From a bacterium (lineage in GTDB: Bacteria; ARS69), in assembly GCA_025774865.1 (NCBI GenBank), contig JALGZO010000067.1, forward strand, positions 1 to 14,237: 14,237 bases of DNA, read 5' to 3'. Shown piece by piece: positions 1 through 11,086 of the stretch (within the stretch, counting starts at the first letter, position 1; every line of letters begins with the position of its first letter). A model generated the notes under the pieces. It saw nothing but the letters and a program-made list of their open reading frames with translations, did no database searches and had not been told where the DNA came from. The position numbers and the translations under genes were made by a program.

Positions 1-960
1 GGTCCCGACGAGGAACAAGATCATCGGCAGGGCCACGAACCCGACGATCTCCGTGACGTACCAGAGCGCCCAACCTCCCGAGAAATGCCGCCAGAGCTGT
101 CCGTGCACGAAGTTGATCAGCTGGAGGAACAGATAGACGAACATCACCGCGCCGCAGATCTTGGCCAGTCCGAGCACGATGCCGTCGTGCGAGCGCTCGA
201 ATGCGGGAGACAGCCGATCGTGAAAGACACGCTTCGAGATGCTGCCTTCGAAGATGACCATCGACAGCCCGGCGAACACGCTCGAGACGAGGAAGAGGAT
301 GGGAATGAACTCCGAGTACCACAGCGGGTGGAGTTTCGGCTTCGCCATCATGTACAGCGCGCCGAGCCCGGACTGATGCAAGGTCGAGAGTGTGATCCCC
401 AGGATGACCGCCCCGATCGTCATACCCTTGAGGAGGCGATGGACGCGCCGGAGCCCGAGCCATTCCGCGATTGCCGGGGAGAACTCGATCAGCTCGACGA
501 TCATGTAGAGCATGAAGTGCCACGCCACGAGGAACAGCACTGAGCTCAGACCGAAGGAGTTGCCGATGATCGGATTGACGACGTTCCAGGGGCGGCCGAG
601 ATCGAGGAGAAGGGCGCCGGCGTAGAACACGTACGCGAGGAAGCCGTTCAGCACGGTGACGCGCACGATGGGGCGGTACTTCTCGACCCCCATGATGTAG
701 ACCAGGAACGTGATGACATACGCCCCGCCGGCGAATGCGACACCCGCCATCACGTCGAAGCCGATCCAGATGCCCCACGGGAACTGCTGGTCGAGATTAG
801 TCACCGCACCGAGACCGTAGGCGAAGCGGAACACCAGAATGACCGCACCGACCAGCATGAACGCGATCGAGATCACGTTGAACGGGGTGATCAGTCGGCC
901 CTTCGGGCGCATCTCGCGCTTGACGAACTGAACGGCCGAGGGGGCGGTCTGGACGCTCAT
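1..960 (-). CDS. NrfD/HybB-family integral membrane quinone-interacting subunit (partial, C-terminus off the left edge)
   Basis: My reverse-strand translation from the ATG at 960 is open to the window edge (320 codons, no stop seen). It is a polytopic membrane protein with many hydrophobic helices. It contains the HybB/HmcC-type signature LSTLHQSGLGALY followed by KLHPLWYSEFIP, and a PWGIWIGFDV segment near residues 61-70. Proteins of this family (NrfD, PsrC, HybB, ActC) sit in the cytoplasmic membrane and exchange electrons with quinone on behalf of a periplasmic ferredoxin-type partner; some couple this to charge transfer. Its start overlaps the stop of the upstream ferredoxin gene by four bases (ATGA), so translation is probably coupled and the two products probably form one complex. 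HybB-type proteins usually have 9-10 helices and about 390 residues, so perhaps 60-80 residues are missing. I cannot tell whether the leftward genes encode a hydrogenase, multiheme cytochromes or another partner. Confidence 0.9.
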   Translation of the reverse strand, partial: MSVQTAPSAVQFVKREMRPKGRLITPFNVISIAFMLVGAVILVFRFAYGLGAVTNLDQQFPWGIWIGFDVMAGVAFAGGAYVITFLVYIMGVEKYRPIVRVTVLNGFLAYVFYAGALLLDLGRPWNVVNPIIGNSFGLSSVLFLVAWHFMLYMIVELIEFSPAIAEWLGLRRVHRLLKGMTIGAVILGITLSTLHQSGLGALYMMAKPKLHPLWYSEFIPILFLVSSVFAGLSMVIFEGSISKRVFHDRLSPAFERSHDGIVLGLAKICGAVMFVYLFLQLINFVHGQLWRHFSGGWALWYVTEIVGFVALPMILFLVGT

Positions 961-1847
961 CTCTCCGTCCCTCCGTCGAGTGGGGTCGCAGGCTCGTCGT
1001 CCGTCCGCGGAGCGTCCCCCTGCCTGGCCTGGCGCATGCCGAGGAGCAGAGCGGGTCCCAGCGTAGCGACAAGCGGAACGGCGGTGAGGAAGTCGCGGGT
1101 GTATTCCGGAAGCGGCGTGGTGCCGAGGTCAGTCCGGAAGCCGAGTTCCTCGAAGGGAACCGGGGAGATGTAGAGCCAACCGGTGCCGCCCGCCTCGTGT
1201 TCACCATAGATGTACGGAACGTAGCGGTCAGGGTCCGTGTGGATGCGCCGCCGGGCGATCTCCAGCACCTCGGTGCGCTTGCCGAACGTGATCGCCTCGG
1301 CCGGGCACTCCTCTGCGCACGCCGGACGCTCCCCGTTCTTGAGTCTCTCCCAGCACATGCGGCACTTCATGATCCGCGGCACCGGACTGTCGTACTCGAA
1401 CTTCGGCACGTCGAAGGGGCAGGAAATCATGCAGAACCGGCATCCCATGCATTTGTCTTCGTTCCAGACGACCGGTCCTTCCTCCGTCTTGGCCATCGCC
1501 TTGGTCAGGCAGGCCGCAGCGCAGGCGGGCTCGAGGCAGTGCATGCACTGCCGCCGCACCCACACGTCGCCGCGACTGGTCTCGTGCCGGTTGACGACCA
1601 CCCATTGCTTGTCGGACGACTGTCGCTGGATGTCGTCGACGGTGGCGTCGTCGTAGTCCGGGGCGGGCAGGCCGTTCACCTCCGCGCACACATCCTCACA
1701 GTTCCGGCAACCCTCGCAGAGCGTCAGGTCCACGAGCGCGGCGTAACCGTCGGACCGATCCTCGGTGCTGCGGGCTTCGGCGGCCTTTCCCACGAGGCAG
1801 CCCGCCCCCGTGACTGCCGCGATCTTGAAGAAGCACCGTCTGTTCAT
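957..1847 (-). CDS. HybA-type ferredoxin with four [4Fe-4S] cluster motifs and a Tat-like signal
   Basis: The 296-residue protein has sixteen cysteines in four ferredoxin groups: C44/47/50/54, C101/104/109/113, C133/136/139/143 and C162/165/177/181. This is the pattern of the electron-transfer subunits HybA, HmcB, DsrO and PsrB, which wire four [4Fe-4S] clusters between a catalytic or heme subunit and an NrfD-type membrane partner. The N-terminus NRRCFFK followed by a short hydrophobic stretch resembles a twin-arginine export signal, so the clusters probably face the periplasm. A hydrophobic helix near residues 253-271 could anchor the C-terminus, as in HybA. The ATG at 1847 is preceded by a GGGAG ribosome site. 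The gene lies 49 bases after the membrane GcvH-like gene and overlaps the NrfD gene by four bases, so all three look like one operon. The physiological partner is not visible in the window. Confidence 0.92.
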   Translation of the reverse strand: MNRRCFFKIAAVTGAGCLVGKAAEARSTEDRSDGYAALVDLTLCEGCRNCEDVCAEVNGLPAPDYDDATVDDIQRQSSDKQWVVVNRHETSRGDVWVRRQCMHCLEPACAAACLTKAMAKTEEGPVVWNEDKCMGCRFCMISCPFDVPKFEYDSPVPRIMKCRMCWERLKNGERPACAEECPAEAITFGKRTEVLEIARRRIHTDPDRYVPYIYGEHEAGGTGWLYISPVPFEELGFRTDLGTTPLPEYTRDFLTAVPLVATLGPALLLGMRQARQGDAPRTDDEPATPLDGGTER

Positions 1848-1896
1848 CGTCCGGTCTCCCTCTTCGACAGGAGTCGGTTCAGTGAAAGAGCTTCTG

Positions 1897-2673
1897 TCAG
1901 TTCTGGGCCCCGCGCTCGTCGCTCGAGGTGAAGAAGGCTTCCTGAAGCCTCCGCCAAGCGGGTCCGTCGACGTGCTGGTAGAGCCCGTCCACGATCGCTC
2001 CTCCGTCGGCGAGCCCGGGAGCCGAAGTCGGCTCGGCCAGGATCAGCGCGATCAATCGGTCCACTTCTTCCCGGAACCACTCCTGTGCCTTGCGTCCGCT
2101 CAGGAGACGCGACGTCTCCGCGTCCACGTCCCGCCCGCGCAGCATGACCGCCCAGCCTTCGCCGAACGGCTCCTCGTTGACGAGCCCCGGCCGCTCACGA
2201 ACCCGCGAGTTCGTGGCAGTAACCGTGCCGGAGAGCGGCGCCTTGACCTCGACACTTCGATCACCACGCCGGAGCACGAAGAGTGGCTCGCCGCGGCGAA
2301 CCTCGGCGCCCCGAGCGGGAAGTTCGATGGTGTCGATGGGACCGAGAGCGGCCTGCATCAGATCGTCCGCGCCGACCAGGACTCGACGAGTCTGGAGACG
2401 CGCCCACGCGTGTCCGCGATCGAGCGCGACGTCGGTGCCCATCCGGAGTCCCTTGTGCTCGATCACCGGACAGATCTGGACATTCACCCACTCCCGAAAA
2501 CGAGAGTTGAACGCGAAGAGGAGCGTGCCCCCCGCGACGGTCACGACGAACAGCGCCAGCAGAATCACACGGCCGACGACGGTCATGACGGCGAAGAGGG
2601 GAAGGCACACGAGCAACACGACAAGAGAGGTGCCCAGGATCACGCTGCGGTTCAGCCATCTGTTGCGTGACAT
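1897..2673 (-). CDS. membrane-anchored GcvH-like (lipoyl-domain fold) protein lacking the lipoylation lysine
   Basis: I chose the ATG at 2673 (258 residues) because GGAGGA lies at the right distance before it; the longer reading from 2742 would start inside a sigma-54 promoter match. Residues about 10-55 form two membrane helices. Residues about 98-175 resemble glycine-cleavage H-protein: LGPIDTIELPARG, then VKAPLSGTV and LVNEEPFGEGW. When APLSG is aligned with the H-protein, the position of its lipoyl-lysine (seven residues before the A) is D138. K144 lies next to the motif but in the wrong place. The protein is therefore probably not lipoylated in the usual way. The C-terminal tail carries an ADGG motif (222-225) shared with the product of 2904-3638. 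It is first gene of the operon with the ferredoxin and NrfD subunit, which suggests an assembly, docking or accessory role in that redox complex; the role is inference. Family assignment is firm, function unknown. Confidence 0.83.
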   Translation of the reverse strand: MSRNRWLNRSVILGTSLVVLLVCLPLFAVMTVVGRVILLALFVVTVAGGTLLFAFNSRFREWVNVQICPVIEHKGLRMGTDVALDRGHAWARLQTRRVLVGADDLMQAALGPIDTIELPARGAEVRRGEPLFVLRRGDRSVEVKAPLSGTVTATNSRVRERPGLVNEEPFGEGWAVMLRGRDVDAETSRLLSGRKAQEWFREEVDRLIALILAEPTSAPGLADGGAIVDGLYQHVDGPAWRRLQEAFFTSSDERGAQN

Positions 2674-2693
2674 GGTCTTCCTCCGTTCCTTAC

Positions 2694-2712
2694 GACGGGA
2701 TTCGATCCCGTC
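2694..2712 (-). repeat. perfect 8-bp stem-loop in the 5' leader of the redox operon
   Basis: GACGGGAT, a three-base loop TCG, then ATCCCGTC. It lies between the predicted sigma-54 transcription start (about 2715) and the ribosome site of the membrane GcvH-like gene, so the mRNA would begin almost directly with this hairpin. It could protect the 5' end or be an operator; there is no U-tract, so a terminator is unlikely. Confidence 0.5.
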
Positions 2713-2725
2713 TGACCCCGCATAA

Positions 2726-2741
2726 AGCAAGGACCGCACCA
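2726..2741 (-). promoter_or_regulatory. sigma-54 (-24/-12) promoter for the GcvH-like/ferredoxin/NrfD operon
   Basis: On the minus strand the sequence reads TGGTGCG-GTCC-TTGCT against the consensus TGGCACG-N4-TTGC[A/T]. It matches 10 of 12 positions, including the invariant GG and GC dinucleotides with exactly ten bases between them. Transcription would start near 2715, about 42 bases before the chosen ATG at 2673. The adjacent response regulator gene (5593-6939) encodes a sigma-54 activator, which supports the call. Not experimentally shown. Confidence 0.7.
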
Positions 2742-2777
2742 CGTCGTCGCCGGGGCGCGGGGTGTTCTGCGGGGTCT

Positions 2778-2807
2778 CGCAAGTCCCCGTGAAAAGGGGA
2801 GTTTGCG
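2778..2807. promoter_or_regulatory. imperfect palindrome, candidate enhancer site for the sigma-54 activator
   Basis: The arms CGCAAGTCCCC (2778-2788) and GGGGAGTTTGCG (2796-2807) are inverted copies that differ by one inserted base and one substitution near the middle of the arm. The centre lies about 77 bases upstream of the predicted start of transcription, a usual place for an upstream activating sequence of NtrC-type dimers. It lacks a T-tract after the stem on either strand, so it does not look like a terminator for the gene ending at 2904. A 7-bp tandem repeat (CGAAGAT twice) lies nearby at 2832-2845. Confidence 0.42.
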
Positions 2808-2903
2808 GGGAGATTCGCGTATGCTTCCGACCGAAGATCGAAGATCGCCATGGCTTCGAGTGATGAGAAACTCATCGCCGGCGTTGAGATTCTCTACGTC
2901 GGC

Positions 2904-3638
2904 TCAGTGAATAAGATCGCGAAGTAGCTCGAGGTAAGCGACGGGTCCGACCATCTGTCGCAGGTCGGTGAGCCGCGCGCCGCCGTCGGCCAGAACGGGA
3001 CCGAGCTCCTGGCTTACCAGCATCCGAAGAGCCGCACCTCGGCGGAACCTCCGCAGGTCGAGCTCCGATTGTTCGCGCGCGGCGGCGGCGGAGAGCCACG
3101 GGCGCCCGGTCGTCTCGTCCTCGACGCTCACCTCCACGAGCCACCCTGCATCGTAGGGTTCCGCCAGGGCCGAGGTGGGGTTGTTCGCAAGACCGTCGTT
3201 GACCGCCTCGAGGCGACCGGCCTCGGGCGCCGCGAGCGACAGGCGCCCGACTCCGAGATCCAGTTCGCAGAAGGGCTCGCCTCGCGCGAGTGCGCGCGGA
3301 ACCGAGGGGTAGCGGACCCGACGGCACGCACCGAGAAGGGCGGCCGCAAGGGCGTCGAGCCCGACGCGACGCACACCTCCGGTGTTTCCGGGGCGCGGCT
3401 GGATCCAGAGGTGACCGCGGGCGTAGGTGCGATCCGACGGAAAGTCCCAGCCCCCCGAGGTGGTTGCTTCTCCGGCTTCGGTGCCTGTCTCGGGTGCTTC
3501 TCCCCGCAATGCGCTGTCGAGGGGGCAGCCCTCGCAGTCGAAGTCCCGATCGCACAGCTTGTAGGACACCAGTCCCGCGCTCATCCAGACGCACGGCTCC
3601 GAGCCCGGGGGAAGGATCGCGTGGCGCTGGCTGCTCAT
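2904..3638 (-). CDS. cytoplasmic GcvH-like protein with an N-terminal four-cysteine motif
   Basis: I placed the start at the ATG at 3638 (244 residues); the frame is open to 3887, but the upstream part is low-complexity, arginine-rich and overlaps the second sigma-54 promoter match. Residues 15-45 form a distinctive cysteine segment: PCVWMSAGLVSYKLCDRDF, then DCEGCPLDSALR, with C16, C29, C35 and C38, which could bind a metal or an Fe-S cluster. Residues about 73-170 follow the H-protein fold: GHLWI, VGLDALAAALLG, AAPEAG, AVND, EPYDAGWL. The lipoyl-lysine position corresponds to V130, so it cannot be lipoylated there. The tail VLADGGARLTDLRQMVGPV (ADGG at 217-220) parallels the tail of the membrane GcvH-like protein. 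There is no signal peptide or membrane helix. It is transcribed in the same direction as the redox operon 230 bases downstream, but has its own promoter match. Function unknown; partnership with the redox module is inference. Confidence 0.8.
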   Translation of the reverse strand: MSSQRHAILPPGSEPCVWMSAGLVSYKLCDRDFDCEGCPLDSALRGEAPETGTEAGEATTSGGWDFPSDRTYARGHLWIQPRPGNTGGVRRVGLDALAAALLGACRRVRYPSVPRALARGEPFCELDLGVGRLSLAAPEAGRLEAVNDGLANNPTSALAEPYDAGWLVEVSVEDETTGRPWLSAAAAREQSELDLRRFRRGAALRMLVSQELGPVLADGGARLTDLRQMVGPVAYLELLRDLIH

Positions 3639-3717
3639 GTCCGAGACCCCGGAGTACCGTTCGGAAGGGGTGGCGGGACGGTCGACCTGACCGTCCGCCG
3701 GCGATGTCTCACCTCTA

Positions 3718-3733
3718 TGCAAGGCTGGCGCCA
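3718..3733 (-). promoter_or_regulatory. sigma-54 (-24/-12) promoter for the cysteine-motif GcvH-like gene
   Basis: The minus strand reads TGGCGCC-AGCC-TTGCA, matching 10 of 12 positions of TGGCACG-N4-TTGC[A/T], with GG and GC exactly ten bases apart. The start of transcription would be near 3707, giving a leader of about 69 bases to the ATG at 3638. It is the second such match, both on the minus strand and both next to a sigma-54 activator gene. Confidence 0.65.
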
Positions 3734-3792
3734 ACGGAGAGCACCCGACGGAAGTGCTGGCCCGGCATGAGCTTCCACGAAAGTGTCGCCGC

Positions 3793-3815
3793 CGGGCCGG
3801 TCCGCCCCCGGCCCG
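3793..3815. repeat. GC-rich inverted repeat in the divergent intergenic region
   Basis: CGGGCCG (3793-3799) and CGGCCCG (3809-3815) form a perfect 7-bp inverted repeat with a nine-base spacer. Its centre is about 97 bases upstream of the second predicted sigma-54 start, so it could be an activator site, but it shares no obvious sequence with the palindrome at 2778-2807. The 299-base gap 3639-3937 between the divergent GcvH-like and kinase genes otherwise holds the sigma-54 match at 3718-3733; I see no convincing sigma-70 promoter for the kinase. Confidence 0.3.
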
Positions 3816-3937
3816 ACGAACGTTGAATTCCTCTACGAACCAATGGATCTTTCCACAGCGCGGAGTAATTTGGATCGGTGCCATCATCGAACCGCCGGAC
3901 TGGGGCGGCGAGAGAGTCGGTGGTGGCGCGAAAGGTC

Positions 3938-5596
3938 ATGGCTTTCAGACGCTCTCTCAGTACGCAGCTCCTGCTGCTGCTCCTGACGTCGATCGGCGTC
4001 GTCCTGGGCGTATATTCCTTCATCAACTACCGCTCCAGCCGGGACGAGTTTCTCGAGTTCGTCCATGGCGCCACGGAGCGCTCCAGTGATCTCATCCGTC
4101 GGGGCACGCGGGACGGGATGCTGCTCCACCGCCTCGACCGCGTCCAGGAGACGCTCGAGGACATCGCGGCCCACCCCGAGGTGGCGGCGGTCCGCGTCTA
4201 CGACAAGGACGGTCTGATCGTCCTTTCGGCGCGACGCGAGGAGATCGGCCACCGCATCGAGCTCGACTCCGAAACGTGCGAAAGCTGCCACCAACAGGAC
4301 CATACGACCGATGTCGGCCGGCTCTCCCGCAGCGGCCTGGTGGACGTGGGGAATGGGGACCAGGTGCTGCGCCATCTCGCCGTGATCGAGAACGAGACCC
4401 TCTGTTCGGCCCACTCCTGTCATCCATCACCGGAGGACCAGCGCGTGCTGGGCGTTCTGGACGTGGAGATGTCGGTCGCTCCCGTACAACGGACGTTGGC
4501 CGCGACCCAGTGGCGCATGGCGTCGACCACGGGAGTGCTGTTCCTGATCGTCGGCCTCGCGTCGGTCGGATTCGTACGCCGCGTCGTCAACCGTCCCGTG
4601 GTCGAGCTCGCGGAGGGTACGCGGCGAATCGCGAGGGGGGACCTCGAAACGCGGATCGACGTCAAGGGTCGACACGAGTTGGCCGACCTCGCGGGAGCGT
4701 TCAACGGGATGGCCGCGGATCTCGAAGCCGCGCGCAGCGAGATCACGGAATGGTCCGAGCGCCTCGAGCAGAAGGTGATCGAAAAGACCGGCGAGCTGCA
4801 ACGAACGCAACGCCAGGTACTTCACATGGAAAAGATGGCGTCTCTGGGCAAGCTGTCCGCGACCGTCGCCCACGAGCTCAACAATCCGATCGCCGCCATG
4901 CTGACCTACACGCGGCTCGTACAGCGGGAACTTCGCGATCAGGCCATTGATCAAACGGTTCGCGAGGAGCTGGACAGCTACCTGACCACACTCCAAAAGG
5001 AGTGCAGCCGCTGCGGCGACATCGTCCGCAACCTGCTCGCCTTCGCCCGACGCTCGGGAGCCGAGATGGCGCCGATCGATCTCAACGAGGTCATCGAGCG
5101 CAGCTTGACACTGGTTCGCCATCATCTCCAGATCAACGGGGTCACGTTGCATCGAGACCTGCTCGAGCACGACAGCCAGATGACTGCCGATGGGGGTCAG
5201 CTTCAGCAGGCCTTCGTCGCGCTCTTCGTCAACGCCGTCGAGGCGATGTCCGGTCCGGGGAACGGCGTTCGCGAGCTGACGGTTCGGCTCGACGGAGATC
5301 CGGATGAAGTCCGGATCGAGGTGAGCGACACCGGTACGGGAATCAGTCCGGACGTGCTTCCCCACGTCTTCGATCCCTTCTTCTCCACGAAGGACCAAGA
5401 GGCCGGCGTGGGCCTTGGGCTCGCCGTCGTCTACGGCATCGTCCGACGTCACGGTGGGACGATCGACGTGGAATCCCGCCTGACCGTCGGAACCACGTTC
5501 CGGGTCGCGCTCCCGCGTCGCCCGCGCCCCGACGGAGCCGGCAGGGGAAGCCAGGGCGCGGCGCGCAACGAACCGCACGAGGAGGCACCGAGATGA
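3938..5596 (+). CDS. membrane histidine kinase with a periplasmic c-type-heme sensor domain
   Basis: The 552-residue kinase starts at the ATG at 3938, preceded by AAAGG and followed at once by the first membrane helix (about 9-30). A GTG at 3878 would add 20 residues but is less likely. The periplasmic region (about 31-190) contains C114-ESC-H118, a classical CXXCH heme c motif, and C156-SAHSC-H162, a CX4CH variant. The second is followed by VLGVLDVEMS, as in heme-sensor kinases of metal- and sulfur-reducing bacteria. A second helix (about 195-213), a HAMP domain, a coiled coil and a HisKA domain with phospho-acceptor H312 in VAHELNNP follow. The ATPase domain has N, G1 (DTGTG), F (FDPFFSTKD) and G2 (GVGLGL) boxes, all intact. 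Its stop overlaps the response regulator start by ATGA, so the pair is one two-component system. The signal is probably redox state or a heme ligand; this is inference. Confidence 0.93.
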   Translation: MAFRRSLSTQLLLLLLTSIGVVLGVYSFINYRSSRDEFLEFVHGATERSSDLIRRGTRDGMLLHRLDRVQETLEDIAAHPEVAAVRVYDKDGLIVLSARREEIGHRIELDSETCESCHQQDHTTDVGRLSRSGLVDVGNGDQVLRHLAVIENETLCSAHSCHPSPEDQRVLGVLDVEMSVAPVQRTLAATQWRMASTTGVLFLIVGLASVGFVRRVVNRPVVELAEGTRRIARGDLETRIDVKGRHELADLAGAFNGMAADLEAARSEITEWSERLEQKVIEKTGELQRTQRQVLHMEKMASLGKLSATVAHELNNPIAAMLTYTRLVQRELRDQAIDQTVREELDSYLTTLQKECSRCGDIVRNLLAFARRSGAEMAPIDLNEVIERSLTLVRHHLQINGVTLHRDLLEHDSQMTADGGQLQQAFVALFVNAVEAMSGPGNGVRELTVRLDGDPDEVRIEVSDTGTGISPDVLPHVFDPFFSTKDQEAGVGLGLAVVYGIVRRHGGTIDVESRLTVGTTFRVALPRRPRPDGAGRGSQGAARNEPHEEAPR

Positions 5597-6939
5597 GTAG
5601 TGCCGAAGGGAGCATCCTGATCGTCGATGACGAGCTCTCCGTCCGCGACTCGCTCAATAGCTGGTTTCGGAAGGACGGCCACCAGGTCCAGACGTCGGCG
5701 AACGCCACCGAGGCGCTTCGGGCCTTGCAGGACCGTTCGTACGACGTCGTCTTGCTCGACATCAAGATGCCGGGAATGGACGGGATGGAGCTTCAGGAGC
5801 GAATCCACAAGCTCAACCCGAGAATCGCCGTCATCATGATCACCGCGTTCGCGACGGTGGACACGGCTGTACGTGCCCTCAAGCAGGGGGCGTTCGACTA
5901 CGTGACGAAGCCGATCGATCCGGATGAGCTCAGCCACCTCGTGCACCGGGCCCTCGAAACCCGCCGGCTCGAAAAGGAGAATGTGCAACTCCGTGAGACG
6001 ATCGATGATCTCGTGCTCACCGACACGATCGTGGGCGACAGCCCGCCCATGAAGAAGGTCATGGAGATGATCCAGCACGTCGCCGGGACGGACGCCACCG
6101 CCCTGGTGCTGGGGGAAAGCGGCACGGGGAAGGAACTGATCGCTCGCGCGATCCACGCGTCGAGTCAGCGGCGCTACTTTCCGATCGTGCCGGTGAACTG
6201 CGGCGCCCTTCCGGAGGAGCTGCTCGAAAGCGAGCTGTTCGGCCACGAGAAAGGGGCCTTCACCGGGGCTCAGCACCGTCGCAAGGGCAAGCTCGAGATG
6301 GCCGACGGTGGGACGCTGTTTCTCGACGAGGTCGGCGCGATCAGCCCCCGGATGCAGGTCGATTTGCTCCGCGTGCTGGAGACGAAGCAGTTCACGCGGG
6401 TCGGGGGTGAACGACCGATCCACGTGGATTTCCGGACGATCTGCGCGACGAACGAGGACCTGCGAGAGGCCGTCGCCCAAGGGCGATTCCGGGAGGACTT
6501 CTTCTACCGGATCAACGTGTTCTCGATCGAGGCGCCGCCATTGCGGGAGCGGCGTTCGGATATCGGGCCACTGGCGCGCCACTTCGTCGAGAAGTTCTCG
6601 CGCGAGATGGACAAGAAGATCACGGAGATCAGCCCCGAGGCGATGCAGCTGCTCGAAGGACTCGACTGGCCGGGCAACGTCCGCGAGCTGTCGAATGCAA
6701 TCGAGCGAGCCATGGTCGTGGGAAAACCGCCCGCGATTCTTCCCAAGGACCTGCCGCTATCCGGGCTCGTGGATCGGCCGGCGGCCGGTGACTCGCTCGC
6801 CGACATGGAACGGCGGCACGTCGCCTCGGTGCTGGGCCGCACGGGCTGGAACATCACGCGGACGGCCGAGATTCTCAAGATCGATCGCGTGACGGTCTAC
6901 AACAAGATCAAGAAGTACGGCCTGCAGCAGCCCTCCTGA
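5593..6939 (+). CDS. NtrC-family sigma-54-dependent response regulator
   Basis: The 448-residue protein has three domains. The receiver (about 5-120) has acidic D12/D13, phospho-acceptor D56 in LLDIKMPGMDG, T84 and K106. The AAA+ domain (about 146-380) has Walker A GESGTGKE (174-181), the GAFTGA loop (221-226) that contacts sigma-54, and Walker B TLFLDE (241-246). The C-terminal Fis-type helix-turn-helix includes WNITRTAEILKIDRVTVYNKI. All key residues are intact, so this should be an active enhancer-binding activator. It is translationally coupled to the heme sensor kinase (ATGA overlap). Its most likely targets in view are the two sigma-54 promoter matches upstream of the divergent GcvH-like/redox genes. 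The exact DNA site it binds is unknown. The closest named relatives by architecture are AtoC and ZraR, but the names should not be transferred. Confidence 0.95.
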   Translation: MSSAEGSILIVDDELSVRDSLNSWFRKDGHQVQTSANATEALRALQDRSYDVVLLDIKMPGMDGMELQERIHKLNPRIAVIMITAFATVDTAVRALKQGAFDYVTKPIDPDELSHLVHRALETRRLEKENVQLRETIDDLVLTDTIVGDSPPMKKVMEMIQHVAGTDATALVLGESGTGKELIARAIHASSQRRYFPIVPVNCGALPEELLESELFGHEKGAFTGAQHRRKGKLEMADGGTLFLDEVGAISPRMQVDLLRVLETKQFTRVGGERPIHVDFRTICATNEDLREAVAQGRFREDFFYRINVFSIEAPPLRERRSDIGPLARHFVEKFSREMDKKITEISPEAMQLLEGLDWPGNVRELSNAIERAMVVGKPPAILPKDLPLSGLVDRPAAGDSLADMERRHVASVLGRTGWNITRTAEILKIDRVTVYNKIKKYGLQQPS

Positions 6940-7689: not shown

Positions 7690-7950
7690 ATGGCAGAAGA
7701 GGTCAAGATCGGTCGAGTCGGCCACTACTTCGGCAAGATCCAGGTGGCCGGCATCGAGTTGACGGAAGGGGATCTGTCCGTCGGAGACACCGTGCACATC
7801 AAGGGTCACACGTCGGACTTCACCCAGACGGTCGATTCGATTCAGATCGACGGCGTCGAGGCGGAGAAGGCCGAGACGGGGAAGTTGATCGGAGTGCGGG
7901 TCTCCGAGCATGCTCGAGTCGGAGACGAGGTTTTTCGAGTCAGCAGCTAG
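7690..7950 (+). CDS. stand-alone EF-Tu domain-2-like small protein
   Basis: The 86-residue product begins MAEEVKIGRVGHYFGKIQVA and continues through ELTEGDLSVGDTVHIKGHTS and FTQTVDSIQIDG, ending in DEVFRVSS. This is the beta-barrel fold of translation-factor domain 2 (the second domain of EF-Tu and IF2) without any GTPase domain. Such mini-proteins are annotated as translation elongation factor-like in anaerobes and have no established function; they may bind RNA or protein. The ATG at 7690 is preceded by GGGAG. An in-frame ATG at 7669 could add seven residues but the match to the family begins at the later start. It stands 110 bases after archaemetzincin and its stop codon overlaps that of the convergent metallophosphoesterase. 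Length agrees with the stand-alone family, so it is not a fragment. Confidence 0.83.
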   Translation: MAEEVKIGRVGHYFGKIQVAGIELTEGDLSVGDTVHIKGHTSDFTQTVDSIQIDGVEAEKAETGKLIGVRVSEHARVGDEVFRVSS

Positions 7951-10411: not shown

Positions 10412-11086
10412 TCACCGGCGACTGGCCGACGCGGATGCGGCGGGCGGTGATTTCCGTCGCTTCCGCTTGGCCGGGGCCTTGCGGAACCCCATCTCGCGGT
10501 CGTGGCTGAGTTCGACGATCACCGTATCGCCGTCCCTGAACCGCCCGTCGATGATGGCGAGCGACAGCGGGTTCTCGATTCTCCGCTCGACCTCGCGATT
10601 CAGCGGCCGCGCGCCGTAGACGGGGCTGAATCCCACCTCGACGAGGAAGTCGCGCACCTCGAGCGAGACTTCGATCGTGATCCGCCGCTCCTCGAGCTGG
10701 ACCGCCGGACGGCTGAGGACGAGGTCGACGATCTGACGCAAGTGCGCCTTCTCGAGTTGGTGGAAGACGATGATCTCGTCGATAAGGAGAATGTTGAACA
10801 CGTCGGGGTGCGCCTTCTCGATCTCGTCGAGGAGAACCGCCGAGTACGGCCGCCGTCGAATCTGCTCGGTGAGCTGACCGCCCTCGCCGTACCCGATGTA
10901 GTCGGGAGGAGCGCCGATCAAGCGCGCGACCTGGTGCCGCTCCTGGTACTCCGACATACGGTTCTGCGTGCGAAGGCCGGCGCGGTTGCGGCGGATCGCG
11001 TTGCAAACGGACACGACGGCCTCTTCCTGTCCGATCCGCCGGCGGTGGACGTTCTCCTCCATGTAGTCGCCCCGGGCTGAAGGCAT
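10412..11086 (-). pseudogene. degenerate ClpB D2 fragment with two internal in-frame deletions
   Basis: The 224-residue frame follows the second AAA+ domain of the ClpB disaggregase closely: [39 protein letters not shown], Walker [13 protein letters not shown] (84-95), [35 protein letters not shown]. Compared with ClpB as I know it, about 37 residues that hold Walker A are missing between R43 and M44. About 65 residues that hold sensor 1 and the arginine finger are missing between L101 and I102. The whole N-terminal half, D1 and middle domain is also absent. It cannot hydrolyse ATP. Still, the frame is open, the pore-loop tyrosine region and sensor-2 GAR remain, and a basic tail ([13 protein letters not shown]) is added. 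The start is uncertain: ATG at 11086 with weak ribosome site, or ATG at 11062. It is either a decaying copy or a derived adaptor-like protein; a full-length clpB elsewhere is expected. Confidence 0.72.

Follow-up and report, generated by a model that had tools for sequence, protein, structure and literature searches.

The stretch of DNA analysed here (the window) is 14,237 nucleotides long and represents the whole of contig C67 (JALGZO010000067.1) of a metagenome-assembled genome from the bacterial lineage ARS69 (GCA_025774865.1). It probably carries an Hmc-type respiratory complex which is equipped with cytoplasmic, non-lipoylated GcvH domains and which is controlled by a di-heme sensor kinase and a sigma-54 activator. 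An earlier reading of the sequence (the original prediction) had proposed that a heme sensor acts through a sigma-54 activator on a divergent redox operon. Judged from sequence comparisons, this inference is supported, because the gene content co-occurs across phyla, the promoters are conserved in the nearest relatives, and loci of the same layout show an excess of promoter matches which sister loci lacking the cognate NtrC do not. The respiratory module and its switch are apparently widespread and undescribed. In the open-licence literature on GcvH together with NrfD or a response regulator, and on archaemetzincins together with two-component systems, we found no account of the unit.

The identities of the window proteins were confirmed with Pfam and NCBIfam models. 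The unit comprises the following features, where L028 and L029 denote the loci of the nearest relatives:

1–960, minus strand: NrfD-family membrane protein (Pfam NrfD, 9e-12), its 3′ end cut at the contig end
957–1847, minus strand: HybA/HmcB-type periplasmic 4Fe-4S protein (Fer4_11, 8e-20)
1897–2673, minus strand: membrane-anchored GcvH-like protein (GCV_H, 5e-20) with a pair of membrane helices at its N terminus and a C-terminal extension carrying a DGG motif
2727–2741, minus strand: candidate sigma-54-type promoter TGGTGC-N5-TTGC upstream of the gene for the membrane-anchored GcvH-like protein; L028 and L029 likewise have TGGTGCG..TTGC
2904–3638, minus strand: soluble GcvH-like protein (GCV_H, 1.8e-9) with the N-terminal four-cysteine motif CVWMSAGLVSYKLCDRDFDCEGC
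3719–3733, minus strand: candidate sigma-54-type promoter TGGCGC-N5-TTGC upstream of the gene for the soluble GcvH-like protein; kept in L028 and L029
3938–5596, plus strand: sensor histidine kinase with an sCache-type periplasmic domain, two c-heme motifs, HAMP, HisKA and HATPase
5593–6939, plus strand: NtrC-family response regulator with a receiver, an AAA+ domain and a Fis-type helix-turn-helix
6950–7579, plus strand: archaemetzincin (peptidase M54; Pfam M54, 8e-21) directly after the regulator gene; HELGHTYNLVHCHDDRCVM

The kinase, regulator and archaemetzincin genes are divergent from the NrfD, HybA and GcvH-like genes. The start of the membrane-anchored GcvH-like gene at ATG 2673 is backed by L028 and L029. 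All six genes of the self-contained unit that had been proposed are present, but its boundaries were drawn too narrowly. At one end, set at 6939, the archaemetzincin had been overlooked. At the other end, contig C583 of the same genome (G000:C583, locus L013) overlaps the NrfD end of the window over 136 base pairs (99.3% identical, one mismatch). This contig completes NrfD and continues with a third GcvH-like gene, so the unit extends past base 1; no gene on the same strand directly follows this third gene on C583. The genome has one rpoN.

Relatives were collected by a scan with a HybA alignment, used in place of a search of genome contigs with the GcvH-like protein, which had returned no relatives. 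The scan yielded at least 80 loci from many phyla, a set that covers the nearest portion of the family. With only five genomes in the collection, the window's own phylum is of little use for prevalence. Two main layouts occur among the listed HybA loci. Type A, the layout of the window, comprises a membrane GcvH, HybA, NrfD, a GcvH fused to a KGxEY helix, the di-heme kinase, the NtrC regulator and the archaemetzincin, often with a soluble four-cysteine GcvH. It is recorded in Acidobacteriota, Myxococcota (‘Deltaproteobacteria’), Gemmatimonadota, Bacteroidota, Chlorobiota, Calditrichota, Krumholzibacteriota, Fidelibacterota and Thermodesulfobacteriota; the recurrence of the gene set across genomes, for which the original prediction had called, is thus observed across phyla. 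Type B, which is also found in Pseudomonadota, combines the di-heme kinase and either one or two receiver-GcvH proteins with HybA, NrfD and a free HmcD-like peptide; a pentaheme cytochrome is usually present as well. The phospho-acceptor box is retained in 37 of 39 receiver-GcvH proteins, the remaining two being truncated or misread frames. Layout labels cluster on the HybA tree (13 changes vs 39 when shuffled), and both layouts are joined in some loci (L044, L067, L088).

The linkage between sensor and complex is recurrent. Among HybA loci flanked on either side by 6 kb or more, the di-heme kinase occurs in 25/28 of those with GcvH-like genes and in 0/5 of those without (Fisher p 2e-4). Relatives which keep the redox genes without the kinase had been named in advance as telling against the circuit; such relatives do occur, yet each of the five that have long flanks lacks the GcvH-like genes as well. 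Furthermore, the kinase, NtrC, archaemetzincin, HybA and fused GcvH have diverged in a correlated manner (r 0.57–0.89; none as high in 2000 permutations), with shared genome ancestry contributing to these values. The correlations for NrfD are lower (0.30–0.69). A separate draw from the Gemmatimonadota comprised 298 genomes; the fused HmcD-GcvH is found in 10 of them, the archaemetzincin in 20 and strong di-heme kinase matches in 20. Both kinase and archaemetzincin accompany the fusion in all ten genomes which have it (Fisher p 1.4e-13 each), and in the eight of these module genomes whose contigs are unbroken, the three genes share a strand and are found inside ~5 kb. Five of the Gemmatimonadota kinases are listed with an in-frame TAG. 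The start codon probably follows closely after this TAG, because a match that leaves the TAG out sets in a few residues further on.

Both predicted promoters are found where the original prediction had placed them, pointing at the redox genes. In the whole 14.2 kb, TGGNNC-N5-TTGC matches only at these two sites, both upstream of GcvH-like genes, against 0.29 matches expected. In L028 and L029, both elements stand in matching places and form the best-conserved block amid diverged intergenic DNA. A relaxed pattern, YGGYNYN5TTG, occurs in the sense orientation in 35/49 of the regions before type A leading genes, with 3 antisense matches and 2.4 expected. Type B, in which the regulator output is GcvH instead of a sigma-54 activator, provides a control; here the pattern is found in 2/35 regions, vs 1.7 expected. 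With a weight matrix representing the general consensus, the figures were 21/46 vs 3/46. Conserved −24/−12 elements, which the original prediction had also called for, are thus present upstream of the putative target genes, both in the nearest relatives and, by enrichment, in type A loci.

These results bear on the simplest alternative, namely a chance neighbourhood in which unrelated two-component genes lie beside a respiratory operon and the promoter matches are accidental. Within a single window the pattern is indeed weak, since 6 of 200 shuffles reach two matches. However, the linkage repeated in many phyla, the correlated divergence, the conserved promoters and the negative control provided by type B refute this explanation, which we regard as extremely improbable.

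The complex itself is probably a relative of the Desulfovibrio Hmc complex. Hmc exchanges electrons between cytochromes of the periplasm and a partner of unknown identity in the cytoplasm, and its NrfD-like subunit HmcC interacts with menaquinone (PMC4215793). The NrfD and HybA families assigned by the original prediction hold, although the nearest NCBIfam models are HmcC for NrfD (3.5e-96, 323 bits vs a curated cut-off of 550) and HmcB for the HybA-type protein (2.8e-100, 335 bits vs 420); both scores are below the curated cut-offs. The best model for the small helix is HmcD, and the B-C-D order is shared with Hmc. In contrast, the operon lacks HmcA (the 16-heme cytochrome), HmcE and HmcF, and no multiheme protein is encoded among the window genes. 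The complex is therefore Hmc-like rather than Hmc. It also differs in its additional GcvH-fold domains, one of them fused to the HmcD-like helix, and in its putative sigma-54/NtrC control with a di-heme kinase. By analogy, it would transfer electrons between quinone and periplasm. Multiheme cytochromes are encoded nearby in several relatives: 13-heme cytochromes directly follow NrfD in L044, L042, L087–L089, L094 and L098, and 21-heme cytochromes precede the operon in L059, L080 and L081.

Since HybA and HybB are similar to the iron–sulfur and NrfD proteins, the pair could instead be the membrane arm of a Hyb-like [NiFe] hydrogenase and the circuit a hydrogen-uptake regulon. In Gemmatimonadota a [NiFe] hydrogenase is encoded in 8/10 module genomes vs 62/288 others (p 2e-4), and the genome of the window has one too. 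The hydrogenase genes of this genome are on other contigs, however; neither the operons nor the window showed a gene of this kind, and across other phyla only 11/22 searched module genomes possess a [NiFe] hydrogenase. An obligate hydrogenase partner is thus unsupported outside Gemmatimonadota, and we consider the hydrogen-uptake regulon unlikely.

The GcvH-like proteins are what sets the proposed Hmc-like complex apart. Two had been recognised before; the third, on C583, brings the count to three, and all three lack the lipoyl lysine. Among 138 aligned GcvH-like domains this residue is kept in one; in the other 137, four of which have gaps, it is most often replaced by G, D, S, N or E. The fold is nevertheless retained, with a template-modelling (TM) score of 0.91 to the E. 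coli H protein, as are the H-W, G-D-D, P-x-x-G, N and P-x-x-x-W positions of GcvH. Besides the lost lysine, the differences from GcvH lie in added membrane helices, receiver domains or a four-cysteine head, and in the C-terminal DGG extension. These observations bear on the proposal that the proteins are working lipoyl carriers which, like the lipoate-binding protein of the sHdr sulfur-oxidising pathway, supply the complex with electrons or with one-carbon/sulfur groups. The conserved fold and the matches to GcvH models would agree with such a role, but the lysine is replaced or unaligned in 137/138 domains while five canonical GcvH proteins of the same family keep it. On this loss the carrier role was rejected, and we hold it to be very unlikely. 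As GcvH models match, annotation pipelines may call such genes glycine cleavage proteins, which would be misleading.

The N-terminal helix of the third GcvH-like protein resembles HmcD (E value 5.9e-6 for the L044 copy and 0.037 for the copy of this genome on C583), which suggests that the GcvH domain is physically tied to the Hmc-type complex. In type B loci, the HmcD-like helix is encoded by a separate small gene after NrfD. From the distribution of charges, the fused GcvH domain would face the cytoplasm. The HybA-type protein is predicted to face the periplasm, since a twin-arginine signal (MNRRCFFK) and a C-terminal membrane anchor can be read from its sequence. The four-cysteine head C-[VIL]-[WY]-x-x-[AS]-G-x(3)-Y-x-[LI]-C-x(5-6)-C-x-x-C is shared by 17 soluble GcvH-like proteins (that of the window and 16 related ones), has no Pfam match and is possibly a metal or cluster site. 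In Bacteroidota (L046, L058, L075, L078, L090, L093, L095, L096 and L106), the membrane GcvH-like proteins carry an N-terminal PBP_like_2 domain of ~300 residues which resembles phosphate-binding proteins. The idea that such a substrate-binding domain is a general part of the system was dropped, as it occurs only in these fusions.

The sensor kinase carries two heme c motifs as predicted, but only the first, CESCH (4277–4291), is a CxxCH motif; the second, CSAHSCH (4403–4423), is CX4CH. Both are found in 51 kinases, 42–51 residues apart. The sensor region has no Pfam match, including to DUF3365, and a PDB sequence search with the sensor gave nothing convincing. Its predicted structure (predicted local distance difference test, pLDDT, 86.5) is a single Cache fold, with WalK, CitA, DcuS, GSU0935 and GSU0582 among the Foldseek matches. 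A recent preprint describes mono-heme sCache_heme sensors, of which the kinase-type or signalling-fused members are reported to bind nitric oxide, the kinase-type ones without holding oxygen (PMC12889525). On the structural model, the sensor of the window is a two-heme relative of these mono-heme Cache sensors. It shares with the sCache_heme (DUF3365/Tll0287) family the periplasmic single-Cache fold, a covalent-heme motif and the fusion to HAMP and kinase domains, and differs in having two motifs (CxxCH and CX4CH) instead of one and in the missing DUF3365 match. The regulator is of the NtrC type with an intact GAFTGA (6253–6270), in agreement with the original prediction. As in AtoSC, ZraSR and NtrBC, a HisKA kinase is paired with an NtrC-family sigma-54 activator (best models AtoS and AtoC), whereas the di-heme sensor and the tie to a respiratory operon and an archaemetzincin set the present pair apart.

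The signal could be the redox state, or else a gas such as nitric oxide. A more specific proposal is that the sensor is a nitric-oxide detector and that the module serves a nitrosative-stress or nitrogen-oxide response rather than redox balance. The reported nitric oxide binding of kinase-type sCache_heme domains, and the predicted fold of this superfamily with GSU0935 and GSU0582 among its matches, are in its favour. Conversely, the described family is mono-heme, whereas the present sensor has two motifs in 51 kinases and its sensor region matches nothing in Pfam, and among the Gemmatimonadota the nitrite reductase NrfA is found in 0/10 module genomes vs 28/288 others, although this is a weak test. 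We judge the nitric-oxide proposal possible but rather doubtful. As a separate observation, NrfA is present in 3/7 type B Gemmatimonadota genomes (G043, G077, G187) vs 25/291 others (p 0.02), and in none of type A.

The archaemetzincin directly follows the NtrC gene in 22 loci. Compared with the archaemetzincin signature HEXXHXXGXXHCX4CXMX17CXXC, the window protein has HEXXH, HCX4CXM and CXXC, with N in place of G and a spacer about one residue short. Archaemetzincins elsewhere share the HEXXH...HCX4CXM site; what differs here is that the peptidase is a fixed neighbour of a two-component system. None of the 7 type B genomes of the Gemmatimonadota draw has it, and neither does the genome of L028. 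The archaemetzincin is typical of type A, but its absence from the latter genome indicates that it is not essential.

We propose the following sequence of events. The di-heme sCache kinase would detect a periplasmic redox or gas signal and phosphorylate its NtrC-type partner, which together with sigma-54 would act at the two divergent promoters and lead to expression of the Hmc-type membrane complex. This complex would consist of a periplasmic HmcB-like iron–sulfur protein, a quinone-interacting HmcC-like NrfD and an HmcD-like helix. On the cytoplasmic side, it would present three GcvH-fold domains without the lipoyl lysine: one on the HmcD-like helix, one with its own membrane helices and one soluble with the four-cysteine head. 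These may act as docking or regulatory subunits and not as lipoyl carriers. In the sister systems, kinases of the same family have receiver-GcvH fusions as partners; there, phosphorylation rather than transcription would convey the signal to the complex.

Several points weigh against this picture. HmcA, HmcE and HmcF are missing, and with them an evident electron partner for the complex in the window. GcvH, HybA and NrfD occur without a kinase in view in L054, L032, L057 and L107, some of which are on short contigs. Related loci are non-independent samples. The relaxed promoter pattern was fixed after some sites had been seen, its type B control using the identical pattern. Finally, the link to C583 depends on the 136-base-pair overlap, in a metagenome-assembled genome with 8% contamination.

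More tentatively, and with less confidence than for the window itself, GcvH-fold domains might serve quite generally to control NrfD-type respiratory complexes from the cytoplasmic side. One family of di-heme sensors would then either induce complexes with such a domain through NtrC and sigma-54 or phosphorylate receiver-GcvH proteins which bind to the complexes and gate them, and the archaemetzincin may adjust one of the proteins. This possibility appears less likely to be right than wrong. A switch-plus-complex unit conserved across phyla offers a testable handle on how electron flow is adjusted in anaerobic and respiring uncultured bacteria, as module and switch can be tested together as a single unit. 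It also gives a context to three orphan protein types: lipoate-free GcvH look-alikes, bacterial archaemetzincins and di-heme Cache kinases.

The same genome contains a second cassette (L012, G000:C334, 3273–9440) with a soluble kinase without heme motif, an NtrC regulator, a membrane GcvH-like protein, an iron–sulfur protein without export signal and NrfD, which suggests a parallel version facing the cytoplasm. Beyond the unit, the window encodes at ~7690–7950 (plus strand) a small gene, MAEEVKIGRVGHYF..., which resembles a lone elongation-factor domain-2-like protein; the long open reading frame has no Pfam match. At 10412–11086 (minus strand), a sequence resembles the C-terminal part of ClpB without the Walker A region and is probably a decayed or truncated gene.

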